Origin: Caldilineaceae bacterium
Lineage (GTDB): Bacteria; Chloroflexota; Anaerolineae; Caldilineales; Caldilineaceae
Assembly: GCA_019637645.1 (NCBI GenBank)
Contig: JAHBVH010000023.1
Coordinates: 1-64,000 of the forward strand
Direction: 5' to 3'
DNA: 64,000 nucleotides
Each line of letters starts with the position of its first letter. The first letter of the stretch is position 1. The notes under the pieces are model-generated. The model was not told the DNA's origin. It saw only the letters and a program-made list of their open reading frames with translations, and did no database searches. Position numbers and translations under genes: made by a program. This document shows, one piece after another, positions 11,371 through 14,947 of the stretch.

Positions 11371-11409
11371 GCCAGAGCTGACAGGTTTTCTAAACCTGTC
11401 AGCTCTGGC
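11371..11409. repeat. Perfect 18-bp palindrome, 3-nt loop (CTGACAGGTTT family)
   Basis: GCCAGAGCTGACAGGTTT (11371-11388) and its exact reverse complement (11392-11409) flank TCT. It begins 32 bp after the stop codon of the leftward metacaspase gene, so it can act as a hairpin terminator for it. It shares the CTGACAGGTTT core with at least five other intergenic palindromes in the window. Confidence 0.95.
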
Positions 11410-11441: not shown

Positions 11442-13193
11442 CTAGGTGTTGATATATTGACCAAAGATCTGGCGATTGACAGTTAGGTTTGCGGGCCGGA
11501 AGTAGGAAGCGTGCGCACAGGCGAGATTATACCAGCCTAGGCCATTCAGACTACGCTGGCAGCCGGTAGGCTCAAGTTCTAGTTTTTCAACATCGACGGC
11601 AAATCTGTCGGCCAGTGTGCCGCCAACCAGATCGCCTTGGGCATCGATATTGATCCACCGATCGACTAGCGCGGGGCGTTGCCCATCGCGATTGGCCGTC
11701 CGGAGTGAGCCCCGCACTGGTGGAATCGAGAGCGCGCTCCCTACGGTGAAGAGGTTGGCAACCCGCCCAGCAAGTCCAACTGTAGCTTCCAATTCGCGTA
11801 ACCCTTCATAGGCCACCACGGTCCCCCAACTGTGGGCAATGATGTGGAGTTCGGCCCCCGTTGCCAACAAAGGCGCGACAACGCTGGTAAACCGGTCGAT
11901 AATCTGTTGGCGTACCCGTTGGTTGATCATATAGACCAGAAAGTCATCCAACGAAAAGTCGCCGCCGCGCGTGGTCTCTAGCCCGCGCCCTCCCGCCCCC
12001 CGCGTGACCGCCGAACGACCAACTGGCGCGGCCTGCTGGCGGTGGCGATCTTCGAGCACATCCTCAATGCGGAGCCGGAGGAGTTCGGCGGCTTGGGCTT
12101 CATCATCCGCGGTGGCACCGATAGAGCGGCTGTTGACCAGATTACTCCACAAGACCTCATGGCGCGTTTTGTTTAAGATCGATTCGCCAAAGCGGCTCGT
12201 ATGCTCTTTGAGGGCTTTCCACCAGGCATCAGAATAGCCAGCGACGTGGGTGTTAATGCCATGGACACAGACGAGGTGGCTGTTGACCGCGGTGCGCGTA
12301 CGCGGCGCTGGCGTTACGTTGAGCGTTTCTAACAACTTGAGGTACGCTTCGATTAATAGCCGTTGGTTATCATCGGAAAGGTTATTGTCTGGGGGTGGTT
12401 CTGGGATGGGGGGCAGGGTTGGGCGCGGCTCACCGACCGACGGGGTTGGGAGTGGTTCGCCAACAAAGGCTCGCTCGTTGCGAAAACTGTCGCTGACCAT
12501 GCCATATTCGTTATACTGTGGCGCTTGGCCCGAGTCAACCGTAGCGACAATCGCGTCGTATAAGTTCCGATAGGTGCCGACAAAAGCCCCGCCATTCCAC
12601 GCATTGGTCAAGGCGATGGTAAAGGCCCCGCCCTCTTTGTACCCAGAGGAGGTAAAGCCATCGCGGCAACCACCCATATGAATCAATTCCGCCAGCATGA
12701 TCGCGCGGGTATTCGCGCTGAGTGGCTGGATTGGGGTCGGGGTAAAGACGCTGCGAATGCCGCGGTAGTTGGTGCCGGAATTGCAACTATCGCTCAACAT
12801 GAGAATGCGCACGCCGCGCTGAAACTTTAGCCAGATGGTATTGAGCTCATCGTCGGTAATCTCCCCATCATAAGCCAAGAGTGTCTCGTCGTGACCATCG
12901 TCCTCATCTTTGTCGGGGTCGGGCTGTTGCCCCCCATGACCAGCGTAGTAAAAGACCAAACGGTCGCCGGAAAGCAGTACTTCTGCGGCTTCTTCGAGCG
13001 CAGTCAAAATCGCAGCCTTGGTGGCCGCCGCGGTTGTCAGGCGCTGGATCGTATAGCCAAGCGGCGTTAGGATCTTTTCGACATTTTCTACATCTAATTC
13101 ACAGCCTTCACAGCCATTCACCCCGTCCCAGCCACCGTAGGCCGCGGGGGATACTTGGCAGAGACCAACGAGAAGTGCCTTGCGAATACTCAT
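11442..13193 (-). CDS. Metacaspase (C14) fused to an alpha/beta-hydrolase domain
   Basis: A 583-aa two-enzyme fusion. Residues ~1-245 are a caspase-type domain: catalytic His86 in FYYAGHGGQ, an acidic pocket segment DGHDETLLAYDGEITDDEL at ~99-117, and catalytic Cys137 in LMLSDSCNSG. A proline-rich linker (~248-270) leads to an alpha/beta-hydrolase-like part from ~303: LVCVHGINTHVAGYSDAWW supplies an oxyanion-type HG, the nucleophile elbow is AHSWGTVVAYEG with Ser455, and Asp521 and His561 are plausible triad partners. There is no signal peptide or membrane segment, so it is cytoplasmic. AAAGGAGCAACC precedes the ATG. It stands alone, flanked by palindromes, with no obvious partner. Prokaryotic metacaspases cleave after basic residues and some act in stress death or defence; the lipase or esterase half suggests a second effector. 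The role is not known. Confidence 0.88.
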   Translation of the reverse strand: MSIRKALLVGLCQVSPAAYGGWDGVNGCEGCELDVENVEKILTPLGYTIQRLTTAAATKAAILTALEEAAEVLLSGDRLVFYYAGHGGQQPDPDKDEDDGHDETLLAYDGEITDDELNTIWLKFQRGVRILMLSDSCNSGTNYRGIRSVFTPTPIQPLSANTRAIMLAELIHMGGCRDGFTSSGYKEGGAFTIALTNAWNGGAFVGTYRNLYDAIVATVDSGQAPQYNEYGMVSDSFRNERAFVGEPLPTPSVGEPRPTLPPIPEPPPDNNLSDDNQRLLIEAYLKLLETLNVTPAPRTRTAVNSHLVCVHGINTHVAGYSDAWWKALKEHTSRFGESILNKTRHEVLWSNLVNSRSIGATADDEAQAAELLRLRIEDVLEDRHRQQAAPVGRSAVTRGAGGRGLETTRGGDFSLDDFLVYMINQRVRQQIIDRFTSVVAPLLATGAELHIIAHSWGTVVAYEGLRELEATVGLAGRVANLFTVGSALSIPPVRGSLRTANRDGQRPALVDRWINIDAQGDLVGGTLADRFAVDVEKLELEPTGCQRSLNGLGWYNLACAHASYFRPANLTVNRQIFGQYINT

Positions 13194-13361
13194 TGCGGTT
13201 GCTCCTTTGCGCGAAAAGGTGATTTTGGCGCCGGTGTAAATGGCAGCATGGATGCACGCAACCCTACGTACGTCCTATGAATCAATAAACGCTATCGAGT
13301 ACAAATTTAGCGTACTTTCTTGTCATTTTCCCTGGCGCTTTTTGAAAATAGGACGCGGATA

Positions 13362-13406
13362 GACGCGGATGCACGCAGCTACAACAAAGCTGCGTGCATC
13401 CGCGTC
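13362..13406. repeat. Perfect 19-bp palindrome, 7-nt loop (GACGCGGAT family)
   Basis: GACGCGGATGCACGCAGCT (13362-13380) and its exact reverse complement (13388-13406) flank ACAACAA. It lies 31 bp beyond the stop of the leftward SH3 lipoprotein gene and may terminate it. The GACGCGGAT end recurs in hairpins at 29018-29094 and 40479-40501 and, as ACCGCGTCCG, at 35498-35530. Confidence 0.95.
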
Positions 13407-13437: not shown

Positions 13438-14616
13438 CTATTTTACCTTTTGAAAGGTAATCTCATAGGAGAAGTGAACCGCTTGAATGGGCCACTGGCA
13501 CTTGACATCAAGGGTCGGACAAACCGCGTATTCATAGTCCAAGCCACCGAGCTTGCCCACAATATCGGGTAAGTAGGGGAAAGCCAACCCCATTTGGTTG
13601 GAGGTTTGGCTGGTAACTGGCCCTGAGCCATCGGCGATGACCCGGAACTTAAAGGGTTCGTAGTACATGGTGATCTCTGCCTTACCCGGCCCTTTGTCGC
13701 CTGTCACAATTTGGCCTTTTTCACCCACGAGGTTTTCAATCACCGCACCATCGACCCCATTGCCATTCTGATCCAAGACGGTGAGAAAGATGTGGTGTTG
13801 TGCCCGGCTATCGCGGATGCCGCCATTGTTTTCATTGAGTCCCAAGACTTTGAAATGGACAATCTGATATTGGGCGTCGGGGTTAAAATCACCGGCGCTG
13901 GGGTCGGATGAGGCTGGCGGTGGTGCGGCTGGGGCTGGGGTTGCTTCCGCCACTGCGGTTGTGGGGGCTGTCGCCACTGCGGTTGTGGGGGCTGTCGCCA
14001 CTGCGGTTGTGGGGGCTGGTGCGGGCGATGGCGGATTCGCCACGATAGCGACAGCTTCCCCCTTTTCTATGGTGGCTAACTCGCCATAGACCCACCCCGA
14101 TTGGCTGTTGACACAACAGATCTGCCACCAGTCACCTTGGGCATTGCGGGCCAACAGCGGAAAGCTCGCCCCTTGGGCGACCGCACCGATCAAATCAAAG
14201 GTGGTTGCTGGCCCGCTGCGGACATTGACCGCCGCGCCGCTGATCGTCAAGCGGGGTTCACTAGCCGGGGGGGGCGTGTCCGTTGGGGCTAGGCTCTGCG
14301 TGGCAGGAGCGCTCAACGTGGCGGTCTCTGTCAGCGGGGCTGGGGTGGGGGCCAAGGGGGCAACGGCTGTCGTTGGCGTCTCGGTGGGAAGAGCGGCAGG
14401 GAGGGCCGTGGGGGCTTGTGCCATCCCGGCTGGCGTAGCTGTAAAGGTGGGCACTAGTGCGTAGGCGCGGGTGGGGGTGGCAGTCGGTGCTGTGGCCGGG
14501 CCAAAGATCGCACAGCCACTCACGCCCAACATCAACAGGGTGGTGAAGAGCAAGATCGTGCCCTGGAAATGACGGAACATTGCTTGATCGAGAGTAAAGC
14601 GTGATTGGGTATCCAT
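13438..14616 (-). CDS. SH3b-domain lipoprotein
   Basis: The ATG at 14616 gives a 392-aa lipoprotein: a short N-region, the hydrophobic core ILLFTTLLMLGV and a lipobox ending LGVSGC. A long threonine/alanine/proline-rich spacer follows. A bacterial SH3 domain starts near AAVNVRSGPATTFDLIG and ends GWVYGELATIEKG. A second spacer contains a three-copy 24-bp repeat (TAVATAPT). A C-terminal beta-rich domain follows (YQIVHFKVLGLNENNGG to YEITFQKVK), which I recognise as common in Chloroflexota exoproteins but cannot name. It probably binds the cell envelope or extracellular polymer. An ATG at 14580 is an alternative start; neither has a strong ribosome-binding site. The upstream open frame to 14748 runs through a repeat element and is unlikely to be translated. 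Confidence 0.82.
   Translation of the reverse strand: MDTQSRFTLDQAMFRHFQGTILLFTTLLMLGVSGCAIFGPATAPTATPTRAYALVPTFTATPAGMAQAPTALPAALPTETPTTAVAPLAPTPAPLTETATLSAPATQSLAPTDTPPPASEPRLTISGAAVNVRSGPATTFDLIGAVAQGASFPLLARNAQGDWWQICCVNSQSGWVYGELATIEKGEAVAIVANPPSPAPAPTTAVATAPTTAVATAPTTAVAEATPAPAAPPPASSDPSAGDFNPDAQYQIVHFKVLGLNENNGGIRDSRAQHHIFLTVLDQNGNGVDGAVIENLVGEKGQIVTGDKGPGKAEITMYYEPFKFRVIADGSGPVTSQTSNQMGLAFPYLPDIVGKLGGLDYEYAVCPTLDVKCQWPIQAVHFSYEITFQKVK
13949..14017. repeat. 24-bp in-frame tandem repeat in the SH3 lipoprotein spacer
   Basis: GCCACTGCGGTTGTGGGGGC followed by TGTC is repeated almost three times, encoding T-A-V-A-T-A-P-T units in the spacer between the SH3 domain and the C-terminal domain. 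Confidence 0.93.
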
Positions 14617-14638
14617 AAGCCTAGCATTCTGTTCTAGA

Positions 14639-14722
14639 TAGGGAGTACGCACGTTGCTCAGGCTTGACAGGTTTGCAAAACCTGCCGAGCCTCTGTGGTA
14701 AGGAGCAACCGCGTAACGCCTA
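14639..14722. repeat. 84-bp MITE-like element with imperfect inverted ends
   Basis: The core GGCTTGACAGGTTT / AAACCTGCCGAGCC (14661-14691) is an imperfect palindrome. Outside it, AGGGAGTACGC...TTGCTC on the left mirrors GAGCAACC-GCGTAACGCC on the right, and TA lies at both borders (14639-14640 and 14721-14722). It lies upstream of the SH3 lipoprotein gene. It is the most diverged of the complete copies. Confidence 0.75.
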
Positions 14723-14947
14723 ACAGATCGGGTTAACCGCTTGTTCATTACGGCTGATTGTAACAGTTTTTCGGTTGCGTCGCCATTTTCCTGGTTAGCT
14801 GCTGGATCGGGAATTCCCAGGTGCCGATGCTATAACGAAGCTCGCGATTGCCCTGTCTGCCTTTTCTGCTTGCTAGACAAGGGGTGGAGGCACATGTTAC
14901 AATGCCGCGGCTAGCCAATCGAGAATGATTGTTTGTCAACCACGTTC

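Follow-up and report, generated by a model that had tools for sequence, protein, structure and literature searches.

A bacterial caspase homologue fused to a lipase-like alpha/beta-hydrolase suggests a built-in proteolytic switch

Introduction

Caspase homologues are common in bacteria, and natural substrates are known for few of them. Cleavage by orthocaspases is reported to occur after positively charged residues (PMC6426788). In VMAP systems, which are found in cyanobacteria, planctomycetes, Chloroflexi and other groups, the caspase domain was described by Kaur et al. (2020) as always accompanied by an adjoining alpha/beta-hydrolase gene (PMC7159879). A single sequence combining a metacaspase with a GDSL lipase and an amidase was reported from Chitinophaga pinensis by Asplund-Samuelsson in 2012 (PMC3501461). 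In the EACC1- and EACC2-caspase systems, the caspase is fused to a variable domain for which auto-proteolytic deployment has been proposed, and alpha/beta-hydrolases are named in the same papers as membrane-lipid effectors (PMC7159879, PMC8195603). In 2025, Canu and other gated nuclease-protease pairs were described, in which a trypsin or caspase partner cuts gating insertions and frees a hydrolytic effector (PMC12799240).

The gene considered here lies in a 64,000-nucleotide stretch of DNA from a Caldilineaceae bacterium (Chloroflexota), referred to as the window, and encodes a caspase homologue and an alpha/beta-hydrolase in one chain. A preliminary description had held that this pairing was undescribed as a system, a view that has to be given up since both neighbouring caspase and alpha/beta-hydrolase genes (PMC7159879) and a metacaspase with a GDSL lipase (PMC3501461) are in print. 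The present analysis, based on sequences and predicted structures, suggests a built-in switch by which the protease may unlock the lipase-like enzyme, possibly in cell death or defence.

Organisation of the fusion gene

The gene, its immediate flanks and the features of the encoded protein are located in the window as follows.

11442..13193, minus strand: caspase/alpha-beta-hydrolase fusion gene, 583 aa, with ATG at 13191-13193 (from the ORF list, the sequence and full-length homologues)
13202..13206, minus strand: Shine-Dalgarno-like AGGAG, read in the sequence
13362..13406, no strand assigned: perfect inverted repeat with 19-nt arms, 5' of the fusion gene
11371..11409, no strand assigned: perfect inverted repeat with 18-nt arms, 3' of the fusion gene
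12459..13193, minus strand: caspase (Peptidase_C14) domain, residues 1-245 (Pfam C14 at 20-228; fold match to 3bij and metacaspases)
12936..12938, minus strand: His86, catalytic dyad
12783..12785, minus strand: Cys137, catalytic dyad
12375..12458, minus strand: proline-rich linker, residues 246-273 (pLDDT below 50 at 255-271; 7-83 residues long in 87 homologues)
12324..12374, minus strand: helix 274-290 around an NQRLLIEAY-type motif, ahead of the hydrolase (helix in both models)
11445..12287, minus strand: alpha/beta-hydrolase domain, residues 303-583
11967..12128, minus strand: R356 to R409, proposed lid bounded by these two conserved Arg residues and comprising helix 363-388 and a disordered loop mostly at 392-411
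11829..11831, minus strand: Ser455, nucleophile (HSWG), in 96/96 homologues
11631..11633, minus strand: Asp521, probable acid, in 96/96
11511..11513, minus strand: His561, probable base, in 96/96

The caspase-hydrolase fusion is confirmed as real, and the order of domains is caspase (C14), variable linker and lipase-type alpha/beta-hydrolase. The preliminary description had also read the gene as standing alone, flanked by inverted repeats and preceded by a ribosome-binding site of its own, and as encoding two folded domains with their catalytic sets; both readings held, with a repeat on each side, an AGGAG ahead of the start codon, a conserved caspase dyad, an invariant Ser-Asp-His set and a hydrolase model of pLDDT 89. 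Upstream on the same strand lies a gene (13438-14748, minus strand) whose 436-aa product combines a long stretch rich in Pro, Thr and Ala with a single SH3_3 domain.

The caspase half scored 66.3 bits against the Peptidase_C14 profile, for which the curated Pfam cut-off is 21.4. Conservation was counted over an alignment of 96 proteins, none shorter than 560 aa, in which His86 and Cys137 were each kept in 95; the sole exception to the dyad, P0090, has the hydrolase and lacks the caspase. Asp or Glu at positions 92, 97, 102 and 103, candidates for an acidic pocket that would select basic P1 residues, was kept in 93-95 of the 96. The closest solved caspase domain is that of GSU0716 (PDB 3bij; Foldseek E 5e-21, 35% identity), a 285-aa protein without a hydrolase, whereas the window protein has both domains. 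The window protein received no specific name from NCBIfam, PADLOC or PHROGs, with PADLOC matching its generic caspase model only (26.7 bits).

The hydrolase half is predicted from its structure model to have a lipase-like alpha/beta-hydrolase fold. Its Ser-Asp-His set is also invariant in stand-alone and M4-fused members of the family (13-row alignment), and the NQRLLIEAY-type motif of the preceding helix is common to stand-alone and caspase-fused members. The Foldseek matches were modest (best E 9e-5, TM 0.38-0.47) and included, at 12-18% identity, the Nir2 DDHD domain, which gave the best match (E 9e-5, TM 0.38), LCAT and Bacillus LipA. The Nir2 DDHD domain binds phosphatidic acid and is no known lipase, and we know of no protease partner for any of these three proteins. 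A DDHD profile was absent from the three Pfam matches of the window protein, and the curated Pfam hydrolase models stayed below their cut-offs (Abhydrolase_6, 13.7 of 26.3 bits; DUF900, 11.8 of 20.5).

Distribution of the family and its protease partners

Among the candidates scored, 516 homologues of the window protein were found at E 0.001, the closest relatives with a named organism being Caldilineaceae MAGs. The sporadic distribution claimed earlier was upheld: at E 1e-10 the hydrolase was matched in 7/386 cyanobacterial, 6/400 Chloroflexota and 5/392 Planctomycetota genomes sampled, and several of these matches are distant relatives. The hydrolase was present in 8/217 genomes from the family of one Nostoc and in 0/82 genomes of the window's nearest order (that of G515, picked by PGK similarity), a set that holds no known positive. 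A scan of genome contigs yielded 28 hydrolase loci. No mobile-element home was found in plasmid and phage records: 12 plasmid records matched, with all matches confined to residues 3-253 and covering 37-43% of the query, and no phage record matched residues 285-583 at E 1e-5.

The hydrolase family is joined, as judged from domain and motif matches, to unrelated proteases, namely caspases in either order, M4 metallopeptidases and, in a distant branch, S8 subtilases. The pairing of caspase and hydrolase put forward in the preliminary description is real, the caspase being one of several protease partners. When the hydrolase of P0090 was used as query, M4 fusions were retrieved alongside caspase fusions, and the M4-fused members comprise P0125-P0127, P0129, L009 and L033 (Pfam). 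The order is reversed in L027, where the hydrolase precedes the caspase and a separate caspase gene lies upstream, and likewise in L046, where the caspase is C-terminal. The distant L034, L035 and L041 end in an S8 subtilase (assigned by Pfam for L034 and L041 and by motif for L035). A search started from L041 retrieved 962 proteins at E 1e-5; among the 120 matches listed, PF00082 was found on 119, HSxG was kept in 117 and all three subtilase motifs in 104. Where given, the source names of this hydrolase-S8 family (P0158-P0277) are mostly subtilisin or S8 family protease, and the organisms named include Proteobacteria, Bryobacteraceae and Blastocatellia. In P0090, a different N-terminal region precedes the hydrolase; its ATPase matches stay below threshold (BrxC_BrxD, 15.9 bits, cut-off 22.2), and it is possibly a further partner.

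Other members (L001-L003, L006, L013, L014) are stand-alone hydrolases. Protease genes were seen near several loci, including S8 genes near L001, L003, L004 and L053, an M4 gene near L006, an S41 gene at L014 with an M6 gene one gene further, and an S41 gene two genes away from L016; none of ten neighbours scanned across L005, L008, L010, L012, L013, L015 and L018 was a protease. An S8 gene lay within 3 kb in 4/13 genomes against 0.099 expected, an association tested after being seen, in genomes picked after their neighbours had been seen and with adjacent cases counted by eye from coordinates; near-identical Nostoc loci are not independent, and P was 1.5e-4 once two of them were counted as one. 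The neighbouring genes are mechanical ORFs, some of which are surely wrong.

Gene neighbourhoods

Ten neighbours of the fusion gene in the window were scanned with Pfam and comprise PGK, triosephosphate isomerase, a CBM9-like protein, GFO/IDH/MocA, an epimerase, the SH3_3 protein, an aldo-keto reductase, an M55 D-aminopeptidase, a PD-(D/E)XK-like protein and a TPP enzyme; neither a peroxidase nor a known defence gene was found among them. Haem peroxidase genes adjoin four members of the family elsewhere, with DyP-type peroxidases at L002 and L005, a divergent animal haem peroxidase at L020, and at L004 (3535-6423, plus strand) a 962-aa protein with catalase-like and animal haem peroxidase parts directly upstream of the caspase-hydrolase gene, downstream of which lies the S8 gene. 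We take the 962-aa protein to resemble the Nostoc linoleate dioxygenase/hydroperoxide lyase pair. An animal haem peroxidase lay within 3 kb in 2 of the same 13 genomes against 0.012 expected, again tested after being seen.

Several other neighbourhoods were noted. In a planctomycete genome (L053:1287-13001), a weakly scoring catalase-like gene (21.6 bits against a cut-off of 25), an S8 protease, a caspase-hydrolase fusion, a second, convergent caspase and a P450 occur together. Conflict-type neighbours were seen at L051, L011, L009 and L022. On one strand of a Nostocaceae genome (L051:709-8564), Trypco2, CHAT-SIR2_2, nSTAND1-WD40 and radical SAM genes accompany a stand-alone hydrolase. L011 has CHAT/LCAT/TPR-S and TIR-FGE neighbours, and an nSTAND1-WD40 protein whose N-terminus matches a caspase profile (31 bits) is encoded upstream of the M4 fusion at L009. 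On a Chloroflexi contig (L022:727-14789), a run of CHAT, caspase, GH18, amidase and hydrolase genes leads to genes of a contractile injection system, namely a tail sheath gene identified by Pfam and a tube-like gene recognised by eye; this link was seen at one locus.

Arginines R356 and R409

The segment from R356 to R409 lies ahead of the nucleophile Ser455. From 172 hydrolase sequences, 130 caspase-fused, 6 M4-fused and 11 stand-alone members were kept, and 25 were excluded because they were fragmentary, distant or atypical in their motifs. The two hydrolase columns that best discriminate 73 caspase-fused from 10 caspase-less sequences (non-redundant) are R356, with Arg in 95% vs 10%, and R409, with Arg in 93% vs 20%. 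Across the redundant set of 130 caspase-fused proteins, Arg was found at R356 in 117 (Lys in 3) and at R409 in 121 (Lys in 1); among 17 caspase-less rows, several of which are near-copies of each other and whose stand-alone hydrolases were hand-picked, it was found in 1 and 3, respectively. Ninety-six hydrolase columns were at least 85% conserved in 70 caspase-fused sequences. Three of these were lost in the Nostocales caspase-less lineage, five were lost in the planctomycete pair L013/L014, and the columns lost in both are exactly R356 and R409 (hypergeometric P 0.006), the Nostocales group being 10 of 15 rows and all 15 giving the arginines at 7% and 20%, within the threshold used.

R409 (0.93) stands isolated, as other columns at 386-415 reach at most 0.67, and the loop alignment around it is uncertain. 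The far caspase-fused relatives L020, L027 and L046 align with Arg at both positions. Exceptions occur on both sides: among caspase-less proteins, L002/P0106 keeps R409 and P0092 keeps both arginines, and 13/130 fused proteins at R356 and 9/130 at R409 have no aligned Arg, several having one within a few residues. The caspase label changes three times on the tree, and the tree-based sign test (median p 0.5) cannot reach significance because there are two or three independent changes only; the apparent link between arginines and caspase rests on these few independent losses.

Proposed mechanism and alternatives

The preference of orthocaspases for cutting after basic residues and the pattern at R356 and R409 together led to the proposal of a pro-lipase whose lid is opened by the caspase, and we infer that residues ~357-409 may be this lid. 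The resting hydrolase would be gated by the long helix and the disordered Gly/Arg-rich loop of this segment until a stress or invasion signal activates the caspase, which would then cut after R356, R409 or both, acting on its own chain or on an adjacent copy. The lid would thereby be opened or removed, and the freed hydrolase would cleave acyl-ester lipids, most likely those of membranes, with membrane damage and cell death as the outcome; where haem peroxidase genes adjoin, fatty acids might instead be released for oxylipin-type products. In two lineages without a fused caspase the arginines are missing, as would be expected if they serve the caspase; one of these lineages has M4 fusions and, as neighbours, S8 or M4 genes. 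The joining of unrelated proteases to this hydrolase family also favours the proposal, and nucleases freed by trypsin or caspase partners offer a precedent (PMC12799240). A one-chain, protease-activated pro-lipase whose lid is cut by the caspase at R356 and/or R409 is considered to have somewhat less than an even chance of being correct. The wider reading can be offered more tentatively: a lipase-type pro-enzyme with an arginine-marked lid may repeatedly have acquired the protease that activates it (a caspase on either side, M4 or S8) for cell death or defence, coupled in some lineages to haem oxygenases that would turn freed fatty acids into signals or poisons.

The conservation of both catalytic sets would also suit a constitutively active hydrolase to which the caspase is only tethered, the whole forming a two-warhead effector that, once expressed or assembled, degrades proteins and lipids together without lid cleavage. 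The stand-alone hydrolases presumably work without a tethered protease, and a metacaspase with lipase and amidase domains has been read as a 'highly destructive weapon' (PMC3501461); this explanation is nevertheless rather unlikely, as it accounts neither for the loss of R356 and R409 alongside a missing caspase nor for the range of protease partners. The preliminary description had suggested that self-cleavage in the proline-rich linker could release the hydrolase. In a model of this kind the caspase would cut the linker or itself, and a hydrolase that is active from the start would be set free from a tether that inhibits or localises it. The linker is indeed disordered (pLDDT block means 51 and 37 over 251-270), and a conserved basic residue at 144 (85 Arg and 2 Lys of 87) sits in a disordered loop past Cys137. 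Linker length and sequence vary widely, however, and region 244-273 contains Arg in only 43/87 homologues and Arg or Lys in 69/87; given this variable length and the missing conserved Arg, compared with the conservation of R356 and R409, the linker is not the best cleavage candidate, and its self-cleavage is weakened as the main idea and now appears improbable.

In two further explanations the hydrolase is given another role. If the lipase were gated by the protease mainly in order to feed fatty acids to adjoining haem dioxygenases or peroxidases in an oxylipin pathway, the peroxidase genes at L004, L020, L002 and L005, the weak catalase-like gene and P450 at L053 and the enrichment of animal haem peroxidases would be accommodated. 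Most of the loci examined showed no peroxidase, the scanned neighbours in the window include none, and such a dedicated pathway is quite improbable. The hydrolase might also be the regulator and the caspase the effector, with acyl removal or lipid binding controlling the protease, as the best match to the Nir2 DDHD domain could indicate; the full Ser-Asp-His set, invariant even in stand-alone and M4-fused members, argues against this, and it is regarded as highly improbable.

Under the preferred reading, in which the caspase would cut the lid, a bacterial caspase would have a likely substrate within its own chain, with R356 and R409 as the two candidate sites, and the M4-fused and most stand-alone relatives, which are without the arginines, provide natural negative controls. 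What a bacterial caspase cuts, and why, would thus become directly testable. If true, the proposal would extend protease-gated effectors from nucleases to lipases, with several proteases recruited to one effector fold, and would provide a bacterial one-chain counterpart of proteolytic zymogen activation.

Comparison with known systems

The window protein resembles the VMAP ternary conflict systems in having caspase and alpha/beta-hydrolase as a constant pair, a likeness by domain type. In VMAP systems, according to the source cited above, the pair is encoded by two genes and accompanied by VMAP, MoxR and vWA, whereas the window has one chain, and none of these three domains was found in the ten neighbours scanned. 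The Chitinophaga pinensis metacaspase likewise joins a caspase homologue and a lipase in one chain but differs in its GDSL lipase and extra amidase (PMC3501461). In the EACC1 and EACC2 systems, as in the window protein, the caspase is joined to another domain; the NCBIfam caspase_w_EACC1 model scored 19.3 bits against a cut-off of 140. Canu-type pairs share with the hydrolase family the recurrent recruitment of different proteases, but the Canu effector is a metallo-beta-lactamase-type nuclease encoded by a separate gene, whereas the effector of the window is a lipase-type serine hydrolase on the same chain (PMC12799240); the metallo-beta-lactamase pro-nuclease by which Canu is recognised has here an alpha/beta-hydrolase in its place.

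The words hydrolase, lipase and esterase are absent from the main text of a survey of 473 cyanobacterial orthocaspases (PMC8283722), and neither the fusion family, the hydrolase-S8 fusion nor an arginine-bracketed lid was named in the titles and abstract starts of the open-licence literature searched. The partnership itself is in print as neighbouring genes and, in a single case, as one metacaspase-lipase chain. The window protein, a C14 caspase homologue joined to an alpha/beta-hydrolase, may work like a gated effector, and the tested features of VMAP, EACC1 and Canu were not found for it.
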